Below are positions 4,960-29,592 of a DNA stretch of 48,032 bases, in pieces. The stretch is from a virus. Numbering within the stretch: position 1 is the stretch's first letter; every line of letters starts with the position of its first letter. The stretch spans positions 1 to 48,032 of the IMG/VR virus record IMGVR_UViG_3300030329_002133; one strand, 5' to 3'. A program made the position numbers and the translations under genes. The notes under the pieces were generated by a model. That model ran no database searches and was not told the DNA's origin. It saw only the letters and a list, made by a program, of their open reading frames with translations.

Positions 4960-5249
4960 TGGCAAAAGCATTACCAGATAATAAGAAAAAGTTAATTGAT
5001 AGATTGTTCGGTGAAAGAACGATATCAAATGGAAGACTTTTAAAGCATACTATTATGAAAGATTTAATGAAAAATAGAGAAAAAATAAGCAAACTAGAAA
5101 ACGACGTAGAAATACATAGCAAAGAATTTAAAACAATACCTAAAAACAGTGAAGGAAAAACTGGAGATAAAAGAATAGTTACCCTTGGAAATAAATCTTA
5201 TGTTTATTTTAAAGTTGGTAAAAAATGGATTAGGTTTGAACTATCATGA
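4959..5249 (+). CDS. Small appendage protein with TGD...KVGKKW module
   Basis: This 96-aa protein starts within the stop codon of the preceding tail gene (TAATG). The N-terminal 65 residues are basic and helical; the last 30 form a beta-like module, G-x-TGD-x-R-x-V...YFKVGKKW, that recurs near the N-terminus of the next protein. Its stop overlaps the next start (ATGA), so the two are translationally coupled and probably built into the same appendage. Exact function unknown. Confidence 0.6.
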   Translation: MAKALPDNKKKLIDRLFGERTISNGRLLKHTIMKDLMKNREKISKLENDVEIHSKEFKTIPKNSEGKTGDKRIVTLGNKSYVYFKVGKKWIRFELS

Positions 5250-6484
5250 GCATACAAAGATTAGAACAAAGTAGTGCAATAGTCACAGGGCAATCAAGAA
5301 ATGTTCCTTCTAATAGAGATGGATATACAGGAGATATGCGTTTTGTTCAACAAGATTTATATATTAAAGTAGGAGATAAATGGATGAAACCTTCTCCTAC
5401 AACTGGCACGTTAGAAGAAGTTTCTACAGGACTTGTTGTATATCCTTACACTATTACATGGTTAACATATCAAGATAGTCCTGATGCAGGATGGACTGAT
5501 TCTGAATTAACAGAATGTGCAGAGTTTATAGATACTACTGGATTAGGTGGAGACCAATCAGAGGCTACAAAGTTTGGAACAAGATGGTTAAATAATACCA
5601 CATTTGCTACCAATGGTAATACTTTGTATACACGAAGCAATGGTAGTCAAACTTTTGATGCTACTTTTGGACAATCAAATAGTGGTAGTGCTTGGTTTGG
5701 TTATAAAACTTCTTCTGGAGAATCAACTGTAAATAAAATATTTCAATGTAATCAAGATGGAGTTCTTTCTAATGTTATTAGTTCAGCACCAGATACTCCT
5801 CAATTAACATTATCTACGACTCACAGTGATCAGGTTTCTGTAAACATTGCTGGTGATATGAGAATTACAAGAAGTATACAAATAGAAAGAAAAGTAGGTA
5901 GCGGGGGAACCTATGCAGCTTTAACTGCGTCACCTTTGACACCAAGTTCTAAAGGGACTGCATCTGATAGCAATGTAACAACTACACATACTGATAGTCA
6001 AAGTGTTAGTGCTTCTACAACCTATTACTATAGAGTAAGGTCAGTAAATAATGCACACAATGGAGATTGGACAGTAGCAAATATTACAACACCAGCAGAT
6101 GGTGCAGCATGGAGTAATGTTCCAGCTGATTTTACTATCACTGCTATTAATTCAGGATTGTCTAGTGATTGTGAAGTATCTTCTGCTAAGCAAATAAATT
6201 TAACAAATGCAGATGGGAATACTACTATATCATGTAGTCAGTCAGGTTTAACTGGAGATTTAAAGGTGGCTGTTGCTACTGATCAAGACCCAGGAACTAA
6301 TGGAACAGGTGGTAATGCTAATGGATTTGCAGCTAGTCAAACAGTGGCTGCAGCAAGCACATATTATTTAAGATTTCAATATTGCGATTTAAAAGAATTT
6401 TCTAACGATACAAATCAGACGGTAACATTTACGAACGATGGAGTTAGTAACACAGACCTACAAATAAGATGTAGAGTATTATAA
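5246..6484 (+). CDS. Tail appendage protein with fibronectin type III-like domain
   Basis: This 412-aa protein has an N-terminal TGDMRFVQQDLYIKVGDKW module (about residues 29-48) shared with the small protein before it. A middle region is rich in Gly, Asn, Ser and Thr. A fibronectin type III-like unit follows at about 180-285, with the usual pattern of proline-containing entry, R-S-I-Q-I-E-R strand and the TTYYYRVRSVN strand. The C-terminal third is Thr/Ser/Asn-rich beta sequence. Such domains decorate phage tails and help hold host surface glycans. The start overlaps the upstream stop (ATGA). Confidence 0.7.
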   Translation: MSIQRLEQSSAIVTGQSRNVPSNRDGYTGDMRFVQQDLYIKVGDKWMKPSPTTGTLEEVSTGLVVYPYTITWLTYQDSPDAGWTDSELTECAEFIDTTGLGGDQSEATKFGTRWLNNTTFATNGNTLYTRSNGSQTFDATFGQSNSGSAWFGYKTSSGESTVNKIFQCNQDGVLSNVISSAPDTPQLTLSTTHSDQVSVNIAGDMRITRSIQIERKVGSGGTYAALTASPLTPSSKGTASDSNVTTTHTDSQSVSASTTYYYRVRSVNNAHNGDWTVANITTPADGAAWSNVPADFTITAINSGLSSDCEVSSAKQINLTNADGNTTISCSQSGLTGDLKVAVATDQDPGTNGTGGNANGFAASQTVAAASTYYLRFQYCDLKEFSNDTNQTVTFTNDGVSNTDLQIRCRVL

Positions 6485-10412: not shown

Positions 10413-13400
10413 TTGGCAAGAAAGCCCGAACATAATTCCATAAAATATTTGGATAGATTAGCTGCTAATAATCTAATCACTATGCAAGATTATTTTAGCA
10501 GATTAGAGTTAGCATATAATTTAGCTCCTGATACTTTTTCTGAAGATGATGTAGATTATATTGAAAAGCAATTCAAGACTGCTGATTTAGAATTTAATCG
10601 TGATTTAGAAGCAGGTGGTAGAAATGTTTTAAAAGGAATGAATCAATTTGTTTCTGGATTAGTAGAAGGTTTTACTACTCTTGGCTGGGCAGAAGAACCA
10701 GAAACATCTGCACATGCAATTGCAAATAGACTTGGACACTTAATAGGTTTTGCTCCAGATGTCGTAGCTAGTTTCCTATCCCTTGGTACTTATATGCCAA
10801 TAGCTGCAGCAAAAAGAGCAGGTAAAGTTGGTTCTGGTTTAACCAGATATGGATTAGCAAAAGCAGGTGAAAAAGCTCCTGGATTTTTAAGAAAAGAAAC
10901 TGGTCCTAAAACATTTGCATTACAATCAATTCCTATGAAAGTTGCTGATAAAGCAGTTGATTTTGTTCAAGACGCATTAAAAGATTCCAATCTATTAACT
11001 CAAGGTTTTATGAGTAGAGGTATATTTAAATTACCTGAGTTTCGATCTATAGCTCATCAAAGTATGCACTTAGGTGTTGCACTAGCAGTTTCTTCATGGA
11101 AGGATGGACCTAAAGGTATGGTTGATTCTGCATTACATGGAGCAGCAGCAGGAGCAGTATTTGGAGGTATAGGTAATTATGTAAATATATCTAGACTTAT
11201 GGCTAATCCAAAAACACGAGATTTAGGTAAGCAAATGATAAGAAACAGAACTGAAGAGCTTACAAAAATGCAAGGATATAAAGAAAGAGAGCAAATGCAA
11301 CTTATAGATATGATGGCTAGAGGTGCAGCAGGTGGTGCATTTCAAGGTGGTATGGCTACAGCACAAGACCTTCCTTTGCCAGAACAAGTATATGAATATG
11401 CATTAGGAACATTTTTTGGAGCAACATCAAAAGGTGCTGGTGAGTTAGCAAGAACTAAATGGATATTTCAAAATAGAATACCTGTAGATGCTAATCTTGC
11501 AAAAGTTAAAAAAGGATTAAAATCAGATGCTGAATTTAATAAGTTAAATAAAGCAGACCAAGACTATATAGAAAGATATCTAGATGTTTTACAAGTTGAA
11601 CAAGTAAATAGATTTAATGCCCTTGGTGTTGACTTTGGTGAAAAGTTTTTACAACTAGCAAAAGAAAATGGTATAGATGTCTCTAATATTAAACCAGGTG
11701 AAGCTTTAAAACAACTACATGAAGCAGTAGCTAAAAAAGCTGGTTTAGATGATTTAACTGAAGTTAAATTTAATATTGTAGATGATATATCTAAGTCAAA
11801 CAAATTAAAACCACTATTTGAAGAATCTGAATGGGTTAGAATATTAGACCATTGGGGAATGAATAAAGATATAGGTGAAAAACTTCCTGAACTTCCTACG
11901 TTAGACCCTGTTGCTGATATTTGGATGAGTTTAAATAATAAAGCTGATAAAGTAACACGTAAAAGAGAATTAAATAAAATAGTTGAAGAATCTGAATTAA
12001 ACTATGATAAATTTTTAACCAATCTAAAGAAGGTAGAACCAGAATTAGTAAAGAAAATAGAATCAGACCATAACTTAAAAAGAGAAATCATTACATCTAT
12101 GAAGTATAGAAAGCATATACTTCAATTAGATAGATGGGAAATAGATATGACCAAAGATGAGCCTGAAATGGTTAAAATGGCTAATAAGTCTTTATTTGGT
12201 GATGATACAGGGGGAAGTAGACCTAGAAATATATATAATACATTATTTGGCAGAAAAAATGTAGGAAGAATTATTATAAATAAATCCTATGCTCAAGCAG
12301 TTGTAAAAGAACAGTGGGGAGAATATGGTTCTTTACAGGATAGAATTGTATTTGAAAGAAAAAATCCTTTAGATTATAATGCAGATGGAGATGCAGTATA
12401 TCGATCTACACAAAAGGGGTCACAACCTAAAATAGATGGAATTACTGGTGGAGATATTATACAACCATACACACATTTATCTCAAATAAAAGAAAGAATT
12501 TCTGATGAAATTATTATAAAAATGTCTAAAGATTTAACAAACAGCAAAAATCCTCATTATGTATTTAGCGGTGCAAAAGATAGTGGAACTTTAATCGTTC
12601 AAGCAATTCCCGATGCTATAGCTTACAATTTAAAGAACCCTGGTAAAAATGCAAAAGCTCAAGAAACAATGGAAAAAGAAATTTTAAAGGTTTTAAAAGA
12701 AGAAAAAATTAAAGTAGAGGATGGATTTGAAAGAGAAACAGCTGCTAATGTTTTATATGAGTTATATACATCTGGTCTTATACCTAGTTTAAATTTAACA
12801 GAATTAGCAAGTTTAAAAAGTAAAATAGATGTAAAAAATGCTATTAAAGAGTATATAAAAGATCCTCAATTTGCTACTGTTCAAAAGTTTAATAAATACC
12901 AAAATCTCTTTCAGGGTGCTAATATTCCATTAGATTTCAGTATCTTTACAGGAGTTAAAGATATGACTGGTTCAGATATATATGGATTTGAAACTGCAAA
13001 AGGAAGTAAATATGAATTTTCTAAGGATAAACGAAAAACCACAAGAACTAAAGTAGACAATACCAAAGGAGATGCAGGATTAAAGGATGAATCTATTGTT
13101 ACATTCTATTTACAGCCAAATCAATGGAAAGAAATAAATCAAGCTTGGGGAATTGCAAAATCATTAAAAGGTCCTGATGGAAGACCTCAGCCTTTTCCTA
13201 TAGAACCACAGGGTCCAGGAAAAGTAAAATTTGGAAAGAAAATATATGATGTAGAAACAAGTCCTAAATTAGGATTACAACCTTTTGAAATTCTTCCAGC
13301 AAAAGAAGGATTCGTTCAACACCATATTGGAAATAAGATAGTAAAAATTAATAAAGATGCTGGATTTTTTAATGTAATGCCTGTAGTTGATTTTCAAGGA

Positions 13401-16400
13401 AAATATGAACTATCTAAAGAATCTGGAACTGATGCTGTAGTTGTTCAAAGGCAAGACATCTATGATATTACAGCAAAAGACCATGGATATTCTAACGATA
13501 CAAGCTTTTTAAAACTTGTAGGTGCAAGTCTTCCTAGAAATGGAATAGGTAATATTTTATTAAAAACAGGGACACAAAGGGCATCAGACTCTTTAAATGA
13601 TTTCATGGTAAATAATAATATCCATTTTATAGTTAGGCAAACAGCAACTAAAACACAAAGAGGATTACAATATAATACCTTAAAATATGAAAAAAGTGGT
13701 TGGAAAACAGATGGCTTGTTTACATATAAAGCAAGACCAGAAGAGTTTCATATTAATTTAGGTGTTTATGAATCAATAGATTCTATAATGAAACCTCAAT
13801 TTATGATTAAACAAATGTTTGATAAAGATGACCCGATTTTAACTGAAGCATTTAATGAAGCAGCTGATCGAATGAGACAAGAATCTATTAATGGTGATGT
13901 AGAATTAAGTGAAAAATTTAGAAAGGCATTTAAAGAAAATGATTTAACATTTACAGATTACAATATAGATGAAATAAGTTTAGCTGCTATCTCAGAAGCA
14001 TTAGAAGGATATAATGTTAAAAATCAATTTGCTAAAGACCTTATAAAAAAAATAATTAAAAGCAATGAACTAGAACCTTTGGGTGAAAGATTTGACGTAG
14101 AAAATGCAAACCAATATAATTTAAACAACTTTGAGCTTCCAGAGTTCCTGAATAAAATAGATTGGCACATAGGAGGCATTATATATCCTACTAACTTAGA
14201 ATATATTAACAGGTCTATATATAGATATGCTATAAAAAGAGTTGTTAAGCCACCAGTTAAATATGCTGGAGAAGGAAAGTTGGCTGCAAGAGATGAAGAA
14301 ATAAGATTTAAGTTTCCACAATTGAATGAAAATACTTTTATGTTACATGATGGATGGAGAAAGTTTAAAGTTAAAGTAGGAGATTGGGCATCAGACCACA
14401 TGGCTCCTAATAGAGAAATGACCTTAGAAAAGCTATGGGAACATTTTGAATTTTTAAATAAAAATAAAACTAAAAATGCTATAGAAATACAAAGAGTTAG
14501 AGAAGATTTAACTATGGCTATGGCCCGTTCACCTATTAGTGGATTAAGTGGTATTAGAGTTTTAGAATTTGCTGGCTTTGTTAAACGAAGAGGATATGGT
14601 GTAGTTACTACATCTAAAACAGATTACTATTTAGGTGGTGCAGACAAAGATGGTGATGCTGTTAAGATATTTCAAAACATGCCAAAAGAAATGATGGATG
14701 GATATAAACGTTTTGAAAATCAGTTAGAAGGAATTGACTTTAAAGACCCGAATCAATTTTCACAATTCATTAGACAAAGAACTGGTGTGCAAGGAGAACA
14801 AAGTCCTCAAGATAAAATGTCTGATTTGTTTAGTTTGCAATCAAGATTAAATGTAGCAAGAAATGCCAGAATTGGTAAACAAAATATAGACCATATAGTA
14901 GCTGGCGTTGTTAGAATGCAACAAATGAGAAATATAGTTGGAGATGGATACAGTGCTATAGTTAATTATAGTCCAAAATGGAAAAAAGAGTTTAAAATTA
15001 CTCCTTTGAAATCATTGAAAGAGATACAATTAGATTCATTTAATTTAATCAATACAATGGCTGATGCTGCTGACTTTAATAAAATAGGTATTTACAATGA
15101 CTATTTAAACGATGCTATGAGAAGTTATTTTAAGATTGAAGTTAGAACACCTAATAAGAAGAAGAAGGGTGAATGGGGACCATGGAGAGAATACGATCCG
15201 CATAGAACAGTAGATGGTGTTAAATCTATTAATTTTTATGACTATTATAAAGACGTTCCATTATTAAAAGAATTAAATAGATTTCATCAACATGTAAACG
15301 ATAAGATGAATAAAGAAGTAAATATTGATTTATTAAAAACAGATGCTAAAAACTATAATGAAGCATTCTTCAACCATCCTTATAAAGTTCCTTACTACGA
15401 AGCATTGTCTAAAAACATAGAAGAAATTTCTAAATTTCAAATTAGCCCTTGGGAAGTATTTGGTGAAAATAGTGTACAAATAGTTAGAGCTATTACGTCT
15501 AAATTAAGAGGATTAATTCAAAAAGACCCTATATTTGAAAGATTTGGATTGTGGGATACTTATCAAAGAGAGATAGAGTGGGATATCAATTTTGATTATT
15601 TGGCTGAAAGCAATCCTAAAGTATTATGGAGAAAATTTCATGAATACCAAGGTTTGTATTATGCATTACAGCAGACTAAAAGATTTGAATTGGCTATGCA
15701 AGAACAAGGTATGGATGCAGAAGCTGTAAGAAGTTTTACAAAAGAAATTATGGATAAAACTTATGACTTAAAATTAGCTATATTTAGAAATAAATATAAA
15801 ACATTAACCAAAGACGCAGAATTAACTGATAATCCTACTGAAAAATTAGGCAATACTGAAATGGGTGTAGAAGATATTAATTATCAGATTGCTCATACAA
15901 AGAGAGATCTTCTTACTAATGATAAGTATAAGTCTTATAGAAATAATTTTGAAGATGTAGAAACATTGTATGATACTTGGTTATTGGCAAATCCAATGAA
16001 AGAAATTGCTGAAGGAGATATTTTAAGACCATTGATGAATGATGTGCAAAAACAATATGATAGACTTTCAGAAGAAATAAATTCTGGAAAAGGAAATATG
16101 AAATTAATAGAAAAACTTATGGATAATTTAGGGTCTGCTCATAATAAATTTAATCCTCAATTTAATCCTATAATTCGTTCTAGATTTATAAATCATAAAA
16201 ATATGCATAAATATTTTGTAGACCAAGCTATGATAATTGAAAGAGGAGTTGAGAAACTTCAAGATAAAATAGGCCAAATACCTGGTCGAAAATTTGCATT
16301 AGAACAGCATCAGATTAACCTTAAAAAAGGAACAGAATATCAACCCATAGAACAGTTTTATCAGGAAGCAATTGGACAAGAGCCTGGTCCGTCTCCTAAG

Positions 16401-19400
16401 CTGTTAGAGAATTATAAAGATATTATCAATCAAATAGAATCAGTTATTCCTGGACTTGAGTGGGTGGGTTATTTAAAAGATAATAAACAGGGATTTATTA
16501 CCTTTGAACAAGATAAACAAATAAAAAGATTGCAAAAAATTATAGGTAAAAACCCTGGAGCTATCCAAAACTTTGAAAGTTTCTTTATAGATATGATGGC
16601 AAATCAAGGAGTCTTGTATGATATTGAAACTGGAAAGTTAAGAAGAGCTGAAACTATGACAGCTGAAGAACTTACAAGACTAAACGATCAACTAGAGGTT
16701 ATATTTAGTGCTAAATCTTGGGGTCAAAAGACTAAGATAGTTGACAGAATAGGTGGTTCATTAATTAAAAAACCTGGGACTAAAGAGCAAATGTTAAATC
16801 CTGATATTATTGGTAGAGATTTAGCTAAGTTTGAAAACTTTTATTACACTAAAAGAGTTATTCAAGGAATAGATAGAGACGGCTCTTTAACTGCTTTGCA
16901 AATTAGATTACCTATGTCAACGCTAGAACTGGGGAGACAGTTTATAAATCTTGGAGATAATTTAGGTAAAGCACAGTCGTCTTTAGATGAAGATTTAGTA
17001 GATACTACTTTTGAGTATATTGTAAAAGCCCCTAAAGAAACTTTAAAACATATGGATACCTTAGTTGAAGCTGCTGTTAATAGAGTAGAGTATAATATTG
17101 GTGCTGATGGAAATCCAAGATTTGCTAGAGATTCTGAAGGAAAGTTACATTCAAGTAAAGAAGAAATATTATATATTACTGAATCTTTTAATGAGAGTGC
17201 TAAAGTCTTAAAAAAAATGAAAGATATGGGAATAAAGTTTACTGTAGATGAAAGCTTTTTAACTGATGCTGAAATAAAATTATTAGAATCTACTAAAACT
17301 GGTAGAGTAAGATTAAAATCTTATTTAGAAGGAGGTAAAACTAAAGAAGTTTCTCCTCAATATTATGTAGAAAAAATGGCAGATGACATGAATACTTTAA
17401 CAAGAAACTACTATAGAGATAGAGTAGAATCACGTCACGAAAGAATAAGAGAGATTGTTTTAAAAACTAAAAAAGATAAAGAAAACCTATATTTATATAA
17501 ACCTGACATTGAAATAGATATTAATGATCCACAAGCTGCTAAATTAATGTGGATACAACAGATGGAAAGAATGTTATTAACTGGAGAAGGTTTGTTAAAT
17601 GAAACAAGAGTAAAAAGAATTTATAAAAACTTACTATTAAGTCAACAAGATGCTATTAAAAAGCTAAATTTTGAAATGTTTTCAATCAATGATTGGAAAT
17701 GGCTAAAATACCAGAGACGTATTAAATGGCAAGCAGAGAATGAACTAATCAAAGAAAATGGCTTAGATGATAGCTTTGATATATACAATCCAGTTAAAAC
17801 AAGTAACGGTAAAGTCAATAAAGATATGGTGTATCAAAAAGTATCTGATATTAGAGTTGCTAAAAAGAATGATAAAGGATTAGACCATGACTTTATCAAA
17901 GAAACTGTAGGTTTTATTGCTGAAGGGTATTTCCCTAGAAATGGACACTTCTTAGTTAAAGAAAATATACCTGAAATAGAAAAATGGATAAACGATAAGA
18001 ATGAAAAGAAATTAGCACGTATTAAGGTAGAAGCAGATTTACCACATGCTATTCAAATGAAATTAAGATTAAGAGAAGATGGTATTACAGATGTAGCAAC
18101 TGCTAAAGCTTGGTATAAAGAGAATGTATTGGATGCACAAATGGAAAAAACTAAAGGTAACTCTTTAACTCAGCAACAATATGAATCTGAAATGCAATTA
18201 TATGATATAATGACTGGTAATAAAAAAGAATTTGAATTAGGTGAAAGAACTCATGCTAATTTCCAATCAAGAGGTGATGGATTTATGCCTTTCTATCAAA
18301 AGAATTTAGATGCAATTAGAAACTACTTAGATGGAGGTAGTAAAACTTGGTTAACTAATGTTATAGGGTTAAGAACTGAAATGGCTTTAGAAGAATTTTC
18401 TAGAAGAAATCAAGGTGAGGAATTTATGCCTAATTGGCTTAATTATATGAGAGGTAGTTTTGTTAGTATGATGGGTATGCCAACTGCAAGAGCATTAAAT
18501 TTAAATGGTATACAAAAGAAAGACCAAGATTTTCTTAGAAGTTATGTAAAGAATAAGTTAGACTCATCTAAGATGGGACTATTAGATACCTATAAAAAAG
18601 ATTTATTATATGATTTTGATATTGCAACATCTATTGGTGAAATGGAACAAAATATAATATGGGGTAATGCAAAAGATTTGTTTTCTTTAAGAGATCAACA
18701 AATAGCTTATGCTAAACAAAAAATGAATGAAGCTAGATTAAAAAAAGCTAAAGCTCTTGTAGAACAAGTAAATACTACTGGTATATATGGAACATTAAGT
18801 CATTATTATTCTGATGGTGTTGCAACAAGATTTTTTGATAAAGTAGATGGTATGTTTGGAGGTAACTTATATGGACCATTACCTAAAAATAAGAAAGCTA
18901 GACAAATGGCTAAACTTAAAAGAATTAAACAAATTTCAGATATTGAAGGTAAGTTTGAATTAATATCTTTGTTATCTCATCCTAAAACATTGTTAACTAA
19001 CTTATATGGTGGTATTCAAAATACCATATCTGATACTGGTTGGGAACCATTTAGAAAAGCAAATGACACTGACTGGTTATTAGCAGAATTTTTTGGTGAA
19101 AATGCTTATTATACTAAATATAACAAAGATACAAAATCATTTGAAAGAGAACCAATTAAAACTAAAAAAGATATAGAAGGTTGGCTAGAATCATTAGGTG
19201 TGTATGATCAGATGTTTACTGATATGGTTGGTTTAGATAGACGTTTTGGTAAAAAAAATCAAAGAAGATTTTGGATTGAATTTATTACAAAAATGAATAA
19301 ATCAGCTAGAAAGGGTGAATTTGAAACTCAAGAAGCTTATAATAAAAGAGCTAAACAAACTTATAGAGAGTTAGCTAAAGAATATAAAATAACTACTCCT

Positions 19401-20222
19401 TTTGTTGAAGCTGGTGCTTGGCCTATGAAATGGTCTGAAAGAAAATTACGTGGAACTGCATTCTTAGCTAATGCAATTAATATGAGATTTAATATTATGG
19501 GTCCTGCTGCAAAGGATATTGCTTTCGATAGTCCAGTAATCTTAGATTTTGCTATGAAAGGTGTATTAAGTTCTCAGTTCTTATATCAAGCAGCATATAG
19601 ACCTAATTTTGCTAACACATCAATGGGTCGTGTAATGACACGTTTCCATCCTTATGCTTGGAATAGTATAGCAAGAAGATTTAGATTGTATAAAGGGGCT
19701 GAACAAGAAGGTTGGAATAAAGAGTTACTTCAAACTAAACAATTTCAAAGACAATTTACTGCTGATATGATGTCTTTAGCCTTAGCTAACTTATTTGTTG
19801 CAAGTATATTTGAGTATGCACTATCTCCACCTATGTCATGGGCACAAGATACTGCACAATTATTGTTTGGTGACAAAGAAGAACGTGATAGAGCATTCTT
19901 TAGTCAATATCCATCTAAAGTTTTAGCACCATTACAAATAGTAACACCACCTATTGGACGTTTTGTATTGCCACCTATAACAAGCATGTTAAATAATGAT
20001 TATGAAATGTTAAGAAAATATCAAGTAGCTACATACTTTCCATATGGTAGATTACTTAGGGATTCATATAGAACATATCAAAACCCAGCAATGGCAGTAG
20101 ATTTCATGACTGGAATGCCTTTACATAGACTACATTCAATGAGAAGAGCTCAAATTGAAGAAGTACAAGCCCAAATAGAGGCTGAAACACCAATTGGAGA
20201 TGGAGATTTGTCTGAAAATTAG
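10413..20222 (+). CDS. Giant 3269-aa virion protein with RNA polymerase-like DxDGD site
   Basis: The start is TTG at 10413 with TAGGAG six bases upstream; the frame is open for 9.8 kb. Gly/Ala-rich hydrophobic segments lie at about 108-137, 235-255, 307-345 and 3115-3138, suggesting membrane contact during ejection. Between them is a long, charged, mostly helical chain. At R1372-S-P1374, then a G-I, then LGGADKDGDAVKIF with D1411, D1413 and D1415, it resembles the RNA polymerase beta-prime double-psi barrel (R-x-P, about 35 residues, A-D-F-D-G-D). K1051 (LLKTGTQRA) and K1080 are candidates for the beta-side lysines. crAss-like phages carry such an enzyme in a giant virion protein. The polymerase reading is inference; a virion role follows from size and position at the end of the ejection cassette. 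Confidence 0.65.
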   Translation: MARKPEHNSIKYLDRLAANNLITMQDYFSRLELAYNLAPDTFSEDDVDYIEKQFKTADLEFNRDLEAGGRNVLKGMNQFVSGLVEGFTTLGWAEEPETSAHAIANRLGHLIGFAPDVVASFLSLGTYMPIAAAKRAGKVGSGLTRYGLAKAGEKAPGFLRKETGPKTFALQSIPMKVADKAVDFVQDALKDSNLLTQGFMSRGIFKLPEFRSIAHQSMHLGVALAVSSWKDGPKGMVDSALHGAAAGAVFGGIGNYVNISRLMANPKTRDLGKQMIRNRTEELTKMQGYKEREQMQLIDMMARGAAGGAFQGGMATAQDLPLPEQVYEYALGTFFGATSKGAGELARTKWIFQNRIPVDANLAKVKKGLKSDAEFNKLNKADQDYIERYLDVLQVEQVNRFNALGVDFGEKFLQLAKENGIDVSNIKPGEALKQLHEAVAKKAGLDDLTEVKFNIVDDISKSNKLKPLFEESEWVRILDHWGMNKDIGEKLPELPTLDPVADIWMSLNNKADKVTRKRELNKIVEESELNYDKFLTNLKKVEPELVKKIESDHNLKREIITSMKYRKHILQLDRWEIDMTKDEPEMVKMANKSLFGDDTGGSRPRNIYNTLFGRKNVGRIIINKSYAQAVVKEQWGEYGSLQDRIVFERKNPLDYNADGDAVYRSTQKGSQPKIDGITGGDIIQPYTHLSQIKERISDEIIIKMSKDLTNSKNPHYVFSGAKDSGTLIVQAIPDAIAYNLKNPGKNAKAQETMEKEILKVLKEEKIKVEDGFERETAANVLYELYTSGLIPSLNLTELASLKSKIDVKNAIKEYIKDPQFATVQKFNKYQNLFQGANIPLDFSIFTGVKDMTGSDIYGFETAKGSKYEFSKDKRKTTRTKVDNTKGDAGLKDESIVTFYLQPNQWKEINQAWGIAKSLKGPDGRPQPFPIEPQGPGKVKFGKKIYDVETSPKLGLQPFEILPAKEGFVQHHIGNKIVKINKDAGFFNVMPVVDFQGKYELSKESGTDAVVVQRQDIYDITAKDHGYSNDTSFLKLVGASLPRNGIGNILLKTGTQRASDSLNDFMVNNNIHFIVRQTATKTQRGLQYNTLKYEKSGWKTDGLFTYKARPEEFHINLGVYESIDSIMKPQFMIKQMFDKDDPILTEAFNEAADRMRQESINGDVELSEKFRKAFKENDLTFTDYNIDEISLAAISEALEGYNVKNQFAKDLIKKIIKSNELEPLGERFDVENANQYNLNNFELPEFLNKIDWHIGGIIYPTNLEYINRSIYRYAIKRVVKPPVKYAGEGKLAARDEEIRFKFPQLNENTFMLHDGWRKFKVKVGDWASDHMAPNREMTLEKLWEHFEFLNKNKTKNAIEIQRVREDLTMAMARSPISGLSGIRVLEFAGFVKRRGYGVVTTSKTDYYLGGADKDGDAVKIFQNMPKEMMDGYKRFENQLEGIDFKDPNQFSQFIRQRTGVQGEQSPQDKMSDLFSLQSRLNVARNARIGKQNIDHIVAGVVRMQQMRNIVGDGYSAIVNYSPKWKKEFKITPLKSLKEIQLDSFNLINTMADAADFNKIGIYNDYLNDAMRSYFKIEVRTPNKKKKGEWGPWREYDPHRTVDGVKSINFYDYYKDVPLLKELNRFHQHVNDKMNKEVNIDLLKTDAKNYNEAFFNHPYKVPYYEALSKNIEEISKFQISPWEVFGENSVQIVRAITSKLRGLIQKDPIFERFGLWDTYQREIEWDINFDYLAESNPKVLWRKFHEYQGLYYALQQTKRFELAMQEQGMDAEAVRSFTKEIMDKTYDLKLAIFRNKYKTLTKDAELTDNPTEKLGNTEMGVEDINYQIAHTKRDLLTNDKYKSYRNNFEDVETLYDTWLLANPMKEIAEGDILRPLMNDVQKQYDRLSEEINSGKGNMKLIEKLMDNLGSAHNKFNPQFNPIIRSRFINHKNMHKYFVDQAMIIERGVEKLQDKIGQIPGRKFALEQHQINLKKGTEYQPIEQFYQEAIGQEPGPSPKLLENYKDIINQIESVIPGLEWVGYLKDNKQGFITFEQDKQIKRLQKIIGKNPGAIQNFESFFIDMMANQGVLYDIETGKLRRAETMTAEELTRLNDQLEVIFSAKSWGQKTKIVDRIGGSLIKKPGTKEQMLNPDIIGRDLAKFENFYYTKRVIQGIDRDGSLTALQIRLPMSTLELGRQFINLGDNLGKAQSSLDEDLVDTTFEYIVKAPKETLKHMDTLVEAAVNRVEYNIGADGNPRFARDSEGKLHSSKEEILYITESFNESAKVLKKMKDMGIKFTVDESFLTDAEIKLLESTKTGRVRLKSYLEGGKTKEVSPQYYVEKMADDMNTLTRNYYRDRVESRHERIREIVLKTKKDKENLYLYKPDIEIDINDPQAAKLMWIQQMERMLLTGEGLLNETRVKRIYKNLLLSQQDAIKKLNFEMFSINDWKWLKYQRRIKWQAENELIKENGLDDSFDIYNPVKTSNGKVNKDMVYQKVSDIRVAKKNDKGLDHDFIKETVGFIAEGYFPRNGHFLVKENIPEIEKWINDKNEKKLARIKVEADLPHAIQMKLRLREDGITDVATAKAWYKENVLDAQMEKTKGNSLTQQQYESEMQLYDIMTGNKKEFELGERTHANFQSRGDGFMPFYQKNLDAIRNYLDGGSKTWLTNVIGLRTEMALEEFSRRNQGEEFMPNWLNYMRGSFVSMMGMPTARALNLNGIQKKDQDFLRSYVKNKLDSSKMGLLDTYKKDLLYDFDIATSIGEMEQNIIWGNAKDLFSLRDQQIAYAKQKMNEARLKKAKALVEQVNTTGIYGTLSHYYSDGVATRFFDKVDGMFGGNLYGPLPKNKKARQMAKLKRIKQISDIEGKFELISLLSHPKTLLTNLYGGIQNTISDTGWEPFRKANDTDWLLAEFFGENAYYTKYNKDTKSFEREPIKTKKDIEGWLESLGVYDQMFTDMVGLDRRFGKKNQRRFWIEFITKMNKSARKGEFETQEAYNKRAKQTYRELAKEYKITTPFVEAGAWPMKWSERKLRGTAFLANAINMRFNIMGPAAKDIAFDSPVILDFAMKGVLSSQFLYQAAYRPNFANTSMGRVMTRFHPYAWNSIARRFRLYKGAEQEGWNKELLQTKQFQRQFTADMMSLALANLFVASIFEYALSPPMSWAQDTAQLLFGDKEERDRAFFSQYPSKVLAPLQIVTPPIGRFVLPPITSMLNNDYEMLRKYQVATYFPYGRLLRDSYRTYQNPAMAVDFMTGMPLHRLHSMRRAQIEEVQAQIEAETPIGDGDLSEN

Positions 20223-21460: not shown

Positions 21461-23260
21461 TTAACCTCCGTATCGTTTAAATGTCATAGTTTCACTATCA
21501 AAAACAGAAATCATTTCAAATCTACCTTCATCTCTTGATTTCTCAGAAGTGATTGTTCGATAAATTTCATTTCTATTTCCTTTTAAAACTATAACCTTGT
21601 CAGCTTTCTGAACAACGTTAGAACTTCCCTTTAAGGAATGCAGTCCAATGGTGTTCTGTTGTCCACTAACTTTATTTACATGGTGTATTGCAAATATGGT
21701 TGTATTATTTCTTTGAGCAATTCCTTTTAACGCATCAATAATAACGTTTTGTTTCTGTATATCACCATCGAATCTATCTACTTGTAATTCATCAGTAGTA
21801 TCAATTACAAGAACATTAGGTTCATGTTGTGCTATAACTTTTTTAACAGCTTCAATTTCTGGAGCTATTGTCATTATTTTAATGTGTTTAAGGTCTTCGC
21901 CCAAACTAGCATCTGGATCAGATTTATATTGTTCATACACCCATTGTTTGGATTTATTCCAAGCAATTTGAACGAATCTTCTCCATGTTAATACTTCACT
22001 CATTTCTAATGAAAGGAATAAAGTATCTTTTTTGGCTTTTGCAACAATATTTTGAACAAATGCTGTTTTACCCATACCAGTATCTCCTGAAAATATAATC
22101 AGTTCACCTGGTTTGAAGTAATAATCCTGACAATCTATAAAGATATCTTTCATATTGATACTTTTCTTTAACATGTCATTAGCAATATAGTTCTTAAAAT
22201 TATCTTCTAAAGATTCTACATCTTTAATATCTAACATATAATCTTTTCTTTTGAAGAAAATACATTTAGGGTCGCAATATTCTGACATAATTGCATCATC
22301 ACAACCATAAGTGTAATTGTTATCATATACATTAGTTACTGTTCTAATAACTTCTTTATCATCTAATTCGCCATTAGCCCATAGTTGTAATCCATTTAAA
22401 GATACCAACAATGGAATACCAGCTCTTTTGTAGCTACTAGCCATACGCATTAGTTTCATATTTCTAGAACCTTTTGATGGCCCTTCATTGAAAACATGTT
22501 GCATACAAGTAACTACTGAATTGGTATTACCCTTTTTTAGAGGGCCTTGTTCTTTTGCATTGGTATACTCTTTACCTGAAAGAATATGTCTTTGCAAATA
22601 AGGCTCTATATTATTTTCAACATTTAGATTGTTGCTAAAATTTTCTTTTGAAGCTCTATATTTATTATAAGCTCTTTTGGATTTAGCAACTTTGCAAACA
22701 TCTTGATAACTCATATCCCATATATCTTCTAATGGAATATAAACCTTATATAAATTAGTCTTTTTATTTAAAGACCATTTGGATCTAATTATTCTAGTTT
22801 TATCGTATATATTATCTCCAAAACTAAAATATTCAGACATTGTAGCTTTTACTTTTTCATGTAAGAACTTACTTGGTTGAAAGCCGAATACATTAAGTAA
22901 CTCAATATGATAACCAGAGCCACTGAACCAAATATTAACATGATTATTATCAATACCAAAATTAAACAACTCGTCAAGAGCATATCTAACATAATGTTGA
23001 ATACCTTCTTCATCTGCATCTCCTTTATCTATATCTATTGTTATTCTATCTATATATACTAAGCCGTCAAAACCTTTAACTGTTTTGTGCTTTTGAACAT
23101 AATTGTAATATGTTTTATCAAAAGCATAATAAGACCTATACATTTCATCTTTAAATGCATTAGAATCCTGCATTTTATTGTATACATCTAATGAAGTAAT
23201 TTGATTTCGAGATTTAATATCACCTTGAACTACTTCAACGATAGCTTCTTTACTTTCCAT
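21461..23260 (-). CDS. Primase-helicase: AEP-type primase fused to DnaB-like helicase
   Basis: This 599-aa protein appears to join two enzymes. The N-terminal half looks like an archaeo-eukaryotic-type primase: D76-I-D78 in TIDIDKGD, then S113-G-S-G-Y-H118 and a later RIIRSKWS basic motif. Cysteines at C252, C320, C329 and C333 could bind zinc or an Fe-S cluster, as in other primases. The C-terminal half is a RecA-fold helicase of the DnaB/Twinkle type: Walker A SGDTGMGKT with K398, then LSLEMS, Walker B VLVIDTTDE, and IHHVNKVSG. It would unwind and prime the phage fork. No separate DNA polymerase is seen in the window. Confidence 0.82.
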   Translation of the reverse strand: MESKEAIVEVVQGDIKSRNQITSLDVYNKMQDSNAFKDEMYRSYYAFDKTYYNYVQKHKTVKGFDGLVYIDRITIDIDKGDADEEGIQHYVRYALDELFNFGIDNNHVNIWFSGSGYHIELLNVFGFQPSKFLHEKVKATMSEYFSFGDNIYDKTRIIRSKWSLNKKTNLYKVYIPLEDIWDMSYQDVCKVAKSKRAYNKYRASKENFSNNLNVENNIEPYLQRHILSGKEYTNAKEQGPLKKGNTNSVVTCMQHVFNEGPSKGSRNMKLMRMASSYKRAGIPLLVSLNGLQLWANGELDDKEVIRTVTNVYDNNYTYGCDDAIMSEYCDPKCIFFKRKDYMLDIKDVESLEDNFKNYIANDMLKKSINMKDIFIDCQDYYFKPGELIIFSGDTGMGKTAFVQNIVAKAKKDTLFLSLEMSEVLTWRRFVQIAWNKSKQWVYEQYKSDPDASLGEDLKHIKIMTIAPEIEAVKKVIAQHEPNVLVIDTTDELQVDRFDGDIQKQNVIIDALKGIAQRNNTTIFAIHHVNKVSGQQNTIGLHSLKGSSNVVQKADKVIVLKGNRNEIYRTITSEKSRDEGRFEMISVFDSETMTFKRYGG

Positions 23261-25141: not shown

Positions 25142-25786
25142 TTATTTATAATCTAAATACATTGTAGGAAAATTAAAAGAAAATTCCTTATAATAAGGTT
25201 GTTCCATTAATATTTTCCTAATAGTATTTGATATGAAACTTCCGCTCATATTACTACAATAACTTGTAGCCTTAGCATTGCAAGGTTCAGAATCTCCTTC
25301 TTCATCACTATACCATGTAAGTTTATATTGAGAAAGTGTTGGTTTTTTAAATACATATTGCTGATAATGTTCTGCACCCATACGACCATCAATTAGATAC
25401 TCTGGTTTTTCGAAATTTAATATATTAGTAACTGCTTCTAATCTTGAAGACATCGAATCAAATCCTAATATTATAAAATCATTACCTGAAGGTAAATGTC
25501 TTTCAAATTCACCTTGTATGGCTCGCACATCACATTCTTGATTAATTTCTAAACACATTTTTTGTAATGCTTCTGTCTTGTCAAGACCAATATGTTTAGA
25601 ACTGAACATTGAAACTCCTATATTTTCATTACCTACTATATCCATATCATATAAATTAAGATTAGTAGCACCCATTCTTACCAATTGAGTGGCTGCGGAA
25701 CTGCCAATAGCTCCGCAACCTAATATATGATATGTAAAGGAATCAAAATTATCTACAATAGCATTATATCTTTGAGTTAAGTTCAT
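25142..25786 (-). CDS. E1-like / ThiF-family adenylating enzyme
   Basis: This 214-aa protein starts at ATG 25786, seven bases after GGAGG; an upstream in-frame start at 25819 lacks a site. It shows the ThiF/MoeB/E1 nucleotide fold: G23-x-G25-x-x-G28 (LGCGAIG), acidic D47 and D49 at the end of strand 2 (LYDMDIV), N53, K70 in GLDKTEA, and D110 with R115 in LGFDSMSSR. C169 and C177 are candidates for the thioester or metal-binding site. The family adenylates the C-terminal Gly of beta-grasp proteins. It overlaps the JAB gene by 23 bases and shares an operon with a Ubl, so that Ubl is the likely substrate. It is short for an E1 and close to ThiF size. Confidence 0.85.
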   Translation of the reverse strand: MNLTQRYNAIVDNFDSFTYHILGCGAIGSSAATQLVRMGATNLNLYDMDIVGNENIGVSMFSSKHIGLDKTEALQKMCLEINQECDVRAIQGEFERHLPSGNDFIILGFDSMSSRLEAVTNILNFEKPEYLIDGRMGAEHYQQYVFKKPTLSQYKLTWYSDEEGDSEPCNAKATSYCSNMSGSFISNTIRKILMEQPYYKEFSFNFPTMYLDYK

Positions 25787-26690
25787 TTCTACCTCCTGTG
25801 TAAGAGTAATTATACTCATCCATTTCAGCCTCTATCAATGCATCTTCAAATGACCATTTTTTACCATTGATGTAAATATATTTATCTGCTGGTAAAGTCA
25901 TTGCACATTGTTCAAGCTGATCTGCTTCCAATATAGCTACTCTAAGTTCAGATTTATTATCTTTTAAACCCTTATTTAAAGCTTCCATATTCTTTTTGTA
26001 ACCTCTATATGGAATTTTATCACCACGATTCCAACAGAAATCAGTTATGATATCATCTACTTTAGCTTCTAAATCAATCATTTCCTGATCATTGCTGTTA
26101 GTAGTTGTTGAAATATTGTTTTGATAACTCCATAATGCCATTTGACTACCTCTATTGTGTGTTGTGTAAATAGTAGGTTTAGGTTTTTCACATAAAGTAT
26201 CAACTTCCGAAGATATAGCTTTTGGAACTTTCTTCTTATCAGTTTTTCTGAGAATATCTAACTCTGTATCTAAATACATTGGATAAGGTTTCCAAAGATT
26301 AACACGTAATTTGTATTCTTCTTTAAGATTTACTACCAATGATATTGACATCTCACCATTAGACATTTCATCAATTGCTGTTAAGTCTGTTCCAGACCAA
26401 AATGCTGCCATAGTGTGATGGGAATGCCACCACACTAATTGAACATTTTTATTAGCATACTTCTTACCCATTTCTACATAGTAATGGGATAAAGCTTCCT
26501 TCTCTAAAACGGTATTACCGCCTGATATTGTCTGCTTTAGTATTGAAGGTTTGAATAATTTCCACTTACCTTCTTTGTCTTTTTGGGCAAGCATCATTCC
26601 ACCTATTTCGGAACTATACTCATCCCAAGCATATCTGCAATAATGTTGTATTTTATTCCAGTCTGCTTCTGTAATATAGAAATTAGCCAT
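25764..26690 (-). CDS. JAB/JAMM metallopeptidase (Ubl-processing or deconjugating)
   Basis: This 308-aa protein has a complete JAMM centre: E28 in SSEIGGMM and H89-S-H91, seven residues, S99, two residues, D102 (WHSHHTMAAFWSGTD). These bind a catalytic zinc that hydrolyses isopeptide or peptide bonds after the Gly-Gly of ubiquitin-like proteins. The C-terminal 130 residues are helical with no clear domain. The ATG at 26690 follows AGAGGAGG. The gene lies between the E1-like gene and the 720-aa gene. Its probable jobs are trimming the Ubl precursor tail and/or removing Ubl from targets. Confidence 0.88.
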   Translation of the reverse strand: MANFYITEADWNKIQHYCRYAWDEYSSEIGGMMLAQKDKEGKWKLFKPSILKQTISGGNTVLEKEALSHYYVEMGKKYANKNVQLVWWHSHHTMAAFWSGTDLTAIDEMSNGEMSISLVVNLKEEYKLRVNLWKPYPMYLDTELDILRKTDKKKVPKAISSEVDTLCEKPKPTIYTTHNRGSQMALWSYQNNISTTTNSNDQEMIDLEAKVDDIITDFCWNRGDKIPYRGYKKNMEALNKGLKDNKSELRVAILEADQLEQCAMTLPADKYIYINGKKWSFEDALIEAEMDEYNYSYTGGRNELNSKI

Positions 26691-28845
26691 TTCTACCTCC
26701 TCTCAATCCTGCGACCCATGTTCGCATTTGGTTTACTATTTCATCTTCTTCGTTTTCACTTAGATCTCTGTTGTGTTGTTCACCTTCAAGCATCTCAATT
26801 TGCTCATCAGTTGGTTCACTAATGTTATTCAACATCTCAATACCTTCTCTTGCTGCTTGTTCTGCTGGTGACTCATCGTGTTTATCTTCTTTTGTATTCT
26901 CAAGATTAAGCATTTCAATATATGTAGGTGCATCTATAGGTATTTCACCCTCTAGCTTTTTCAACATATATTTCAGAGCTTTATACCAATGACATTTATC
27001 TCTAAATTGACATTCAATATAATCTGAATATTCAGTATAGGCATAAGCAAAAGATATCGCAGCTTCCTTAAATGCTATTTCAGCTTTTTCTCTATCTCCT
27101 TCTGTTGCATCATCACCCGCATATATTGTTTGATTAAATTGAAATTTATTCATTCTCCACATCGGATCGAAGATATCATAACTCATAACATATAATTCAA
27201 GCTCTTCAAATCTTTCATCATAATGAAAATCATCCATCTCTTGTCTACCTGTAATGATAATATTATCTTCTACATGCTCTAACCATATTAGATTTTCTAT
27301 TCCTATCGTTCCTTGATTTGTCGAACCATAACTATCATCACTCATAGTTTGTCCATCCCTATTACGAGTTTGACGGTTATTAATCACGATGTCATCAGTA
27401 TGTTCTAATTCGGAAATGAAATTATATGCTGTTGCACGTGGACCAACAAATCTTGGTATTAACCAGTTAAGATGAACACCATTTATTGGATTAGCTACAA
27501 AATGAATAGTTTGTTGCACTGCATTTCTGCTAAGACTTTTACCAACTGCATTTTTAAATTGCGTTGAATAATGTCCTGGCATTCCTAAAAATGCTTCATT
27601 TATGGAATTTAATGGACCCGTTGAACCTATTGTAAATCTACACCATAATTGTAGTGTAATCAATAATCCAACTAAATCTAATTTAACTAAATGATTTCCA
27701 ACTTCACTTTCTAGATTTCCAAAACATATACCAGTTAACTTTTTATAGTCTGGTTCATCACCTAACCATTTTGTAAATGAATTAGTTAAGTTTCCCATAT
27801 ATTCATAGTTTGAACTTCTATTAAAGAATGGATGCAATATACCGTTTTGATTCCTATAGTCATTATGTTGACCATTAGGAACTGGTATTGAAACTTCTAC
27901 CTTTGGATACCATGCATTCCAAGTGTAAGATGTAATTTCATCTACAAAACCACATGTAGTTGCATACGAAATATGGTGACGACTACTTCTTCCACCAAAT
28001 GTAGATGGTGTTATTCTGTCTAATTCACCCTTTTGTTGAAGTGTATTGATAAAGGTTTCTAGATTTATATTGAATGTAATCCCACAAGGTGGTATTGGAA
28101 CTTCTCCCAAACTTTCATCACTTGTTGTTTGAACACCCATATTGAAGTCTTTAAACCAAACATCAAATACCAATACTGAACGTTGCCACTTAATAACTTC
28201 TGCTGTATTCTTATCATAGTTATTTGCTTTTAGATATTCTTCTTCAACTATTGGATATGTTACACGCATATCAACTTCTATTTTGTCTTTAAAAGAACTA
28301 TTCTCTATAAAATCTTGACATGCTTTGAATTGTTCTGCTAACATATCTTTAATAAGTTCTATAGATTCTTGTGCTTTTTCAACCTGATTATGGAAATTAG
28401 CACCATCTTTTCTTAATTGACGAAGAGTTTCGTCTATTGCGACAATTCTACTGATAAAATATCTTTTATCACGATCCATTCGATCTGGCCTTCTTTGTAG
28501 AATTAAACCTAAATCACCATTTAATTTTTCATATTGATTAAATCGTGAATTGATACACTCAATTAAAGTTTGTTTATATCCACGTTTCCAATTAAATGCT
28601 GGTGTAATTCCAACTGGATTTAATATAGGTAATCTTGATTTATTACCTGAAATCCAACTTCTTGTAAGATATTGTGCATTTATATCATCAATATCTCTCA
28701 TTACTTTATTTTTTGGTCCTACAATTATCTCTTTTGAAACTGAATCTAAATCAGGGTCAAAATTGCAAACTTCTACAGACTCATTTGTATAGTCTTCTCC
28801 ATGTTTTGCTATTGATCTTGTACGACTATTTGAGTAATAACTCAT
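26683..28845 (-). CDS. 720-aa protein of the ubiquitin-like cassette, candidate E2
   Basis: I do not recognise the whole protein. It lies where an E2 would be expected, between Ubl and JAB. A region from about 300 to 405 has E2-like order: a YP-containing strand (WYPKVEVSIPV, 312-322), HP at 338-339, a GIC with C374 (TGICFGN), and a following hydrophobic helix (LVGLLITLQLW, 391-401). The 34-residue gap between HP and the Cys is much longer than in typical E2s. An earlier beta-rich part (190-275) and an acidic tail (640-705) flank it. The start follows TAAGGAGA. The last residues (LRGGRNG) are encoded by the JAB ribosome binding site and should not be read as a ubiquitin tail. Confidence 0.45.
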   Translation of the reverse strand: MSYYSNSRTRSIAKHGEDYTNESVEVCNFDPDLDSVSKEIIVGPKNKVMRDIDDINAQYLTRSWISGNKSRLPILNPVGITPAFNWKRGYKQTLIECINSRFNQYEKLNGDLGLILQRRPDRMDRDKRYFISRIVAIDETLRQLRKDGANFHNQVEKAQESIELIKDMLAEQFKACQDFIENSSFKDKIEVDMRVTYPIVEEEYLKANNYDKNTAEVIKWQRSVLVFDVWFKDFNMGVQTTSDESLGEVPIPPCGITFNINLETFINTLQQKGELDRITPSTFGGRSSRHHISYATTCGFVDEITSYTWNAWYPKVEVSIPVPNGQHNDYRNQNGILHPFFNRSSNYEYMGNLTNSFTKWLGDEPDYKKLTGICFGNLESEVGNHLVKLDLVGLLITLQLWCRFTIGSTGPLNSINEAFLGMPGHYSTQFKNAVGKSLSRNAVQQTIHFVANPINGVHLNWLIPRFVGPRATAYNFISELEHTDDIVINNRQTRNRDGQTMSDDSYGSTNQGTIGIENLIWLEHVEDNIIITGRQEMDDFHYDERFEELELYVMSYDIFDPMWRMNKFQFNQTIYAGDDATEGDREKAEIAFKEAAISFAYAYTEYSDYIECQFRDKCHWYKALKYMLKKLEGEIPIDAPTYIEMLNLENTKEDKHDESPAEQAAREGIEMLNNISEPTDEQIEMLEGEQHNRDLSENEEDEIVNQMRTWVAGLRGGRNG

Positions 28846-28870
28846 ATTTTTTTCTCCTTAGATTAATGTG

Positions 28871-28909
28871 GTGTGACTATCCCATGCCCCTACATAAAGA
28901 TAGCCACAC
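28871..28909 (-). other. Intergenic hairpin B between Ubl and the 720-aa gene
   Basis: On the minus strand GTGTGGCTATC pairs with GATAGTCACAC (11 bp, 17-base loop). One pair is G-U on the minus-strand RNA but would be A-C on the plus strand, which favours a functional minus-strand RNA. It sits in an 85-base gap of the Ubl operon. No U tract follows, so it looks like a processing or stabilising structure, or a partial attenuator. Confidence 0.5.
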
Positions 28910-28930
28910 TTATAGTTTAACTTATACAGA

Positions 28931-29161
28931 TTAAGACTGATCTCCACCTGTTTTGTCTGATTTGACAATAGCAACATATCCACCATCAACTAGTGAAGTT
29001 GAATCATCTGTTGATACTACACCATCCAGATTTATTACTGCTCTATTATCTACAGCAAGATGCGATCTTAAATGCCCTACAGTAGTTACATTTGATGGTA
29101 ACTCTGTATCTGCAAAATTAGAACTATTAAACATTAACTTGATTGTCATTGATTGACTCAT
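28931..29161 (-). CDS. Ubiquitin-like beta-grasp protein (ThiS/MoaD-like) ending GG-DQS
   Basis: This is a 76-aa protein (ATG at 29161 preferred; 29164 is an adjacent alternative). The C-terminal half fits ThiS/MoaD/Ubl beta-grasp proteins: an I-N-L-D-G strand, a polar segment, SLVDGGYVAIVKSDKTGG in place of the usual L-x-D-G-D-x-V-x-I. The Gly-Gly at 72-73 is followed by only DQS. Loss of DQS would expose a Gly-Gly end for the E1-like enzyme. Overlap with the upstream gene and GGAGG support the start. It could be a protein modifier or a sulfur carrier; the adjacent JAB fits tail trimming. Confidence 0.75.
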   Translation of the reverse strand: MSQSMTIKLMFNSSNFADTELPSNVTTVGHLRSHLAVDNRAVINLDGVVSTDDSTSLVDGGYVAIVKSDKTGGDQS

Positions 29162-29592
29162 CATTTACCTCCTATTTCGGTAGTTTGTGTGTTATTTATT
29201 ATGTTATCAACTTTCTTTAAGTAATAGAAAGCATAACATAAATGGGCTATTCCCCTATTAATCTGGGTTCTTGACTCAGATTTTATTTGATTATCATCAA
29301 ATTCTGCTAATCGAAGTCTTGTTGCTATTGAATATATCAATGCATCATAAACTTCTTCTATTGATTCAGATAAATTGTTTCTATCTTCATCTTCGTGTTT
29401 AAATATTGGCACTTCTTTATTGTATTTCTTAGCACCATTAGCTAAACGTTGAATTAATTCTTCTGCAAACACTGATCTAATGTCTGCTAATTCATCCCAA
29501 GTGATAGTATTTTCAGCTTCAAGTTGTTCTCCCGTATTTTTAAGGCAACCTACTATCTCCTTAACTATCATTTCATTATTGCTCAAAGACAT
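29161..29592 (-). CDS. Helical protein, possibly MazG-like nucleotide pyrophosphohydrolase
   Basis: This 143-aa all-helical protein carries NGAKKYN followed by DRNNLSESIEEVYDALIYSI (about 71-90). A GAxKY segment and an E-E-x-x-D-A helix recall the metal-binding helices of MazG-type NTP pyrophosphohydrolases and related phage proteins. It starts after AAAGGAG and ends in the Ubl start codon region, so it is coupled to the cassette. It may clean up modified or host nucleotides, or simply be an early phage gene upstream. The family call is tentative. Confidence 0.4.
   Translation of the reverse strand: MSLSNNEMIVKEIVGCLKNTGEQLEAENTITWDELADIRSVFAEELIQRLANGAKKYNKEVPIFKHEDEDRNNLSESIEEVYDALIYSIATRLRLAEFDDNQIKSESRTQINRGIAHLCYAFYYLKKVDNIINNTQTTEIGGK

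Follow-up and report, generated by a model that had tools for sequence, protein, structure and literature searches.

Does a virus carry a ubiquitin-like protein (Ubl) conjugation pathway of its own, and which proteins would such a pathway modify? Ubl conjugation is best known from eukaryote-type cells and from bacterial antiviral defences. To our knowledge, the bacterial Ubl-conjugation systems described so far either serve in defence or are plasmid-borne with unknown roles. The window analysed here, i.e. the complete 48,032 nucleotides of a 48-kb virus record, contains a compact gene set that raises this question. With a probability of roughly 0.7, we interpret the set as a virus-borne pathway for Ubl conjugation and deconjugation that would belong to the replication module, a reading derived from sequence comparison and structure prediction.

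Organization of the locus

According to the ORF list, the minus strand encodes, in the direction of transcription, a 143-aa ORF, a Ubl, a 720-aa protein, a JAB peptidase and a ThiF/E1 enzyme:

29161..29592, minus strand: 143-aa upstream protein, whose ORF shares 4 nt with the start of the Ubl ORF; its status as a partner is uncertain
28931..29164, minus strand: Ubl, 77 aa; precursor ending in K71-T-G-G-DQS, predicted beta-grasp
26683..28845, minus strand: candidate E2-like conjugating protein, 720 aa; C374 is the candidate active site (conserved Cys, weak profile and fold matches)
25764..26690, minus strand: JAMM/JAB metallopeptidase, 308 aa; JAMM residues, predicted role in Ubl maturation and as isopeptidase
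25142..25819, minus strand: E1-like ThiF-fold activating enzyme, 225-aa ORF; Pfam ThiF, probable start at 25786 (214 aa)
21461..23260, minus strand: primase-helicase (DnaB-like); conserved neighbour downstream of E1, outside the cassette proper

The 720-aa/JAB and JAB/E1 ORF pairs overlap, and all four cassette genes are overlapping or nearly so. The initial annotation had placed four ORFs on one strand at this site, and their minus-strand positions are borne out by the ORF list. The location of the Ubl also stands, but its start lies at 29164 (MM) and not at 29161. E1 probably starts at Met12, because most homologues begin at the equivalent of this residue.

The primase-helicase ORF matches phrog_19 (3e-23) and DnaB_C (1.6e-12), and the window also encodes a terminase, a portal and a head protein. 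No tRNA genes were found in the window, and an Rfam search of it returned no match. For the 143-aa ORF, Pfam, PHROGs and NCBIfam gave no match of note, and 22 of 60 testable loci yielded an upstream homologue. By eye, the C-terminal half of this protein looks like all-alpha NTP pyrophosphatases, a resemblance supported by no library. Elsewhere in the window, the plus strand carries a GTA-type 3TM holin (1283-1654; Pfam 5.6e-13) adjoining a metallophosphatase-like ORF, and a 3269-aa ORF (10413-20222) without a PHROGs match.

The modifier, its activating enzyme and the peptidase

The AlphaFold2 model of the Ubl (mean pLDDT 83) adopts a beta-grasp fold and is paired by Foldseek with MoaD, the parkin Ubl, Caldiarchaeum ubiquitin, ThiS and SUMO, mostly at probabilities of about 1.0 and with weak E-values of only 0.002-0.04 (best 0.0018). 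By this measure, it is no closer to ubiquitin than to MoaD and ThiS. Its sequence has no match in Pfam, PHROGs, NCBIfam or PADLOC, and the matches of a PDB sequence search with the Ubl profile were discarded as low-complexity noise. In 21 aligned homologues, K71, G73 and G74 are invariant. A K-x-GG motif is near-universal, and GG is the exact C-terminus in many homologues; in others it is followed by a tail, with an overall range of 0 to more than 100 residues, while the window Ubl ends in GG-DQS. Thus, both features of a GG-type modifier are present, the beta-grasp fold and a C-terminal Gly-Gly that is either exposed or followed by a tail, and maturation is predicted to occur after Gly74. The earlier proposal of a beta-grasp protein ending in GG-DQS is upheld by the fold and the invariant GG; a model without a beta-grasp was not what we obtained.

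E1 matches Pfam ThiF at 5.1e-18, above the curated cut-off, and ThiF models are among its best NCBIfam matches. Its closest solved relatives are UBA5 (7.5e-14) and MccB, followed by other E1s, ThiF, MoeB and Cap2. The ThiF fold, an ATP-binding Gly loop (G34xGxIG) and acidic and basic residues (R17, D58, D60, K81, D121, R126) place it in the E1/ThiF superfamily, with C180 as the candidate catalytic cysteine. Invariant in 39/39 homologues are R17, G34, G36, I38, S40, D58, D60, N66, K81, D121, R126, C180 and K183, and adding the crAss-like, bajarodcaudo and Fpv1 enzymes to the alignment leaves these residues, C180 and K183 included, invariant. C180 is the only invariant cysteine, C35 and C188 being nearly so. 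ThiF and MoeB carry two Zn-binding CxxC pairs. This feature of the sulfur-carrier enzymes is missing from E1, as no CxxC pair occurs in the alignment of the 39 homologues or after addition of the crAss-like and Fpv sequences. The nucleotide-binding and acidic residues first noticed in this protein are therefore confirmed by the Pfam match and by their invariance.

The JAB protein matches Prok-JAB at 8.9e-5, just under the Pfam cut-off, and among solved proteins it is closest to the Rpn11 homologue of the archaeon Caldiarchaeum (1.7e-5). Despite the sub-threshold score, the perfect JAMM set reported initially holds: the E...HxH...S...D signature (E28/H89-S-H91/S99/D102) is invariant in 31 homologues. 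The JAMM residues are invariant even in phages whose Ubl has GG as its last two residues and therefore carries no tail to be trimmed; this pattern would indicate that the enzyme acts in deconjugation.

The 720-aa protein as a candidate E2

The weakest assignment concerns the 720-aa protein. Members of its family range from about 430 to 740 aa and share the layout P339-F-F ... GICFG (C374) ... W401 ... P411, in which C374 and P411 are conserved in 74/74, W401 in 73/74 and P339 in 71/74 sequences. C374 is preceded by P[YF] and followed by G or S and then by W401, so that this invariant, catalytic-type cysteine would fit an E2-like context. In the same 74 sequences, C612 and C618 near the C-terminus stand out in conservation and are a possible metal-binding pair.

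No E2 domain was recognised by Pfam, PHROGs, NCBIfam, PADLOC or a PDB sequence search; the PDB matches of the family profile were rejected as coiled-coil noise. Searching the PDB for folds with the full-length model, which is of low confidence (mean pLDDT 63.5), gave no match, to UBC folds or others. The profile searches of all four proteins suggested in the initial annotation hence succeeded for E1 through Pfam and brought the JAB protein near its cut-off, and left the Ubl and the 720-aa protein without a library match.

Profile-profile alignment with hhalign places the core of the 720-aa family onto the catalytic cysteine of PRTRC_B E2s with a score of 19.9, whereas the best of 150 column shuffles scored 17.1 and the profile in reverse 11.1; with an hhalign probability of 1.6%, this alignment is not significant by itself. 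The PRTRC_B reference E2s came from plasmids and genomes, mainly from plasmids, because a search of bacterial genomes for Prok-E2_D/Prok-E2_B yielded almost nothing. Comparison of the model with viral models (BFVD) by Foldseek retrieved six unnamed proteins at E < 1e-13. Weaker matches were an unnamed 420-aa protein (probability 0.98), which, judged from its length alone, may be Fpv1 gp57, and a 435-aa protein of the crAss-like phage cr128_1 (0.66). In cr128_1, the Ubl-like and JAB genes flank a gene whose product is 435 aa long, which fits the length of the matched protein. Aligning the E2-like profile of the uncultured phages with that of the crAss phages gave no significant hhalign score, yet the same cysteine was paired.

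The 720-aa protein diverges fastest among the cassette proteins: identity to its nearest relative (L003) is 46%, compared with 83% for Ubl and E1, and varies between 10 and 75% by block. Such fast divergence would fit a role in target choice. Taken together, the invariant cysteine, the synteny with crAss phages and the weak PRTRC_B match make it quite likely that the 720-aa protein is a divergent E2. The candidate E2 proposed at the outset is therefore retained as a candidate; its support is not decisive, and no UBC domain is recognised.

Distribution, genomic context and selection

A relative of E1 is encoded on 434 IMG/VR contigs, and the order Ubl-E2-JAB-E1 is found in dozens of them. Of 51 viral loci whose upstream flank is complete, 40 contain all four components as judged by HMM; six further loci in the same tally are bacterial ThiF loci and are not part of this count. 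Eleven of the 51 lack a Ubl HMM match, and all seven of these that were read carry a small GG-ending ORF directly upstream of the E2-like gene (tail of 0-10 residues). Among named phages, E1 relatives occur almost exclusively in crAss-like and Flavobacterium phages, and the examined ones keep the Ubl-E2-JAB-E1 order. Every locus that extends far enough to be tested (81/81) has a primase-helicase 1.2-3.4 kb downstream of E1. Scanning bacterial genomes with two short patterns returned seven weak ThiF matches only, which does not imply absence from bacterial chromosomes.

In all four genes dN is below dS, with the lowest value for E1. Because the set and its order recur across IMG/VR and all four genes show dN < dS, a chance cassette can be excluded, and the phage-encoded set of Ubl, E1, JAMM peptidase and 720-aa protein first noticed in this window is real.

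Proposed pathway and alternative explanations

In the proposed pathway, the JAMM peptidase would cut the Ubl tail, if there is one, after the second Gly. E1 would then adenylate the Ubl C-terminus and, as its residues suggest, form a thioester on C180. In the weakest step, the 720-aa divergent E2 may accept the Ubl on C374 and may select and modify targets via its fast-evolving extra regions. The same JAMM peptidase would finally remove the Ubl again. Because the cassette constantly adjoins the primase-helicase, which is the sole lead in this respect, phage replication and recombination proteins or host proteins encountered early in infection are the expected targets. The initial annotation had suggested host proteins, RNA polymerase or phage structural proteins as substrates, or interference with host conjugation defence; these uses are conjectural, and the genomic position would direct attention to the replication module and to early targets in the first place.

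The initial annotation had named a sulfur-carrier role as the main alternative. In such a system, E1 would adenylate the Ubl, a donor would convert it to a thiocarboxylate, and the sulfur would be passed to a nucleotide, tRNA or cofactor, with the JAB protein trimming the Ubl in the style of siderophore operons. Ubl-JAB-E1 sulfur operons are known (PMC1779556), and both the ThiF-like character of E1 and a Ubl as close to MoaD/ThiS as to ubiquitin agree with this option. We nevertheless consider it unlikely and favour conjugation and removal, because the JAB protein is kept intact where no trimming is needed, an E2-like protein with an invariant cysteine accompanies E1, and no gene for a sulfur acceptor or other sulfur-handling protein was recognised, rhodanese, ThiG/MoaE-like and cysteine-synthase genes being among those looked for in the scanned window proteins. 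The lack of CxxC pairs in E1 and of a tRNA gene in the window also speaks against sulfur transfer. A different objection accepts conjugation and questions only the E2: the 720-aa protein could be a dedicated target, scaffold or reader, with the Ubl passed on by E1 itself, as happens in the SAMP systems of archaea. That no UBC domain is recognised, that the length varies and that divergence is faster than in Ubl and E1 would suit such a role. On the other side stand the invariant cysteine, preceded by P[YF] and followed by W, a PRTRC_B alignment that is centred on the catalytic cysteine and beats all shuffles, and the position of the gene, which holds the E2 slot of PRTRC-like E2-JAB-E1 plasmid cassettes; we regard a non-E2 function as rather improbable.

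Counter-defence genes are usually patchy in distribution, whereas this cassette is fixed beside the primase-helicase. This constancy, together with a full set in which the catalytic residues are all conserved and which exceeds what a decoy needs, makes it very improbable that the genes act in counter-defence or superinfection exclusion by sabotaging Bil- or CBASS-type conjugation of the host, e.g. through a decoy Ubl or JAB protein. Such a function would accord with the PADLOC models for CBASS E1-E2 and JAB proteins, which match E1 and JAB, and with the presence of conjugation-type defences such as CBASS in hosts (PMC10097602).

Returning to Ubl conjugation and removal as the preferred explanation, we see even odds for a broader statement: that complete Ubl conjugation has long been maintained at the core of the replication module in several large phage groups (uncultured IMG/VR lineages, crAss-like Steigviridae and Flavobacterium phages), where it regulates replication or seizes host factors, and that this virus-owned, eukaryote-like way of modifying proteins employs a new E2 family. 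A full set beside a phage primase-helicase offers a tractable route to what such systems do for mobile elements, and its carriers include the cultured phages PhiCrAss001 and Fpv1, in which the genes are filed as 'thiamine biosynthesis'. It also contributes two families that the libraries searched did not recognise, one of fast-evolving candidate E2s and one of GG modifiers.

Comparison with known systems

We found no earlier description of the phage cassette in the openly licensed literature, including papers on PhiCrAss001, crAss-like and jumbo phages. In the crAss-like Steigviridae (crAss001 gp79-gp76) and in Fpv1 (gp58-gp53), the genes follow the same order of Ubl-like, E2-like, JAB and ThiF/E1, and adjoin primase and/or UDG and exonuclease genes; they are annotated merely as 'thiamine biosynthesis protein' and 'metalloprotease'. 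Their E1s share the invariant residues of the window E1 but only 25-32% identity. The JAB profile matches the crAss/Fpv JAB proteins at 1.3e-7 over the catalytic core, and the Ubl profile matches their Ubl-like proteins at 7e-4. Unlike the window Ubl, these Ubl-like proteins continue beyond a conserved SG(A/G) with a long C-terminal domain, which the JAB protein may cut off (L042-L045, L136). The Fpv1 JAB gene is interrupted: the opposite-strand endonuclease gene gp55 divides it into gp56 and gp54 just ahead of HxH (positions 3725-6017 of locus L044), which suggests an intron or homing-endonuclease insertion.

PRTRC plasmid cassettes are likewise carried by a mobile element and consist of an E2 (Prok-E2_D/PRTRC_B), a JAB protein and ThiF, arranged E2-JAB-E1, but the window proteins score far below their models (PRTRC_ThiF 19.6 against a cut-off of 144.75 bits; PRTRC_A 18.7 against 101.8 bits), and the E2 is only marginally alignable. 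PRTRC-like E2-JAB-ThiF cassettes occur on cyanobacterial and Chloroflexota plasmids (L118, L130, L132, L133), with the E2 annotated as a hypothetical protein.

BilABCD resembles the window in uniting Ubl, E2, JAB and E1 in one operon. In BilD, an inactive and an active adenylation domain are combined with a Cys domain of roughly 80 aa, and a CEHH motif is present in BilB (PMC11354881); by contrast, the window E1 has just one domain, of about 214 aa, and no conserved CEHH follows C374. Type II CBASS (Cap2/Cap3) shares the E1, E2 and JAB chemistry and, through its PADLOC models of a Cap2-like E1-E2 and a JAB protein, matches E1 and JAB; it differs in its E2-E1 fusion, whereas the window cassette has separate genes and its own GG Ubl, and no CD-NTase was recognised among the scanned neighbours. 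Phage lambda provides a further beta-grasp protein and JAB pair, TAPI/TAPK, which functions in tail assembly and was treated together with bacterial Ubl operons by Iyer et al. 2006 (PMC1779556). No E1 or E2 is described there, and the pair belongs to a tail module rather than to a replication module. By their defining features, the cassette is thus not Bil, CBASS or PRTRC; the likeness to PRTRC and Bil drawn in the initial annotation does not extend to membership and holds as one of functional analogues.
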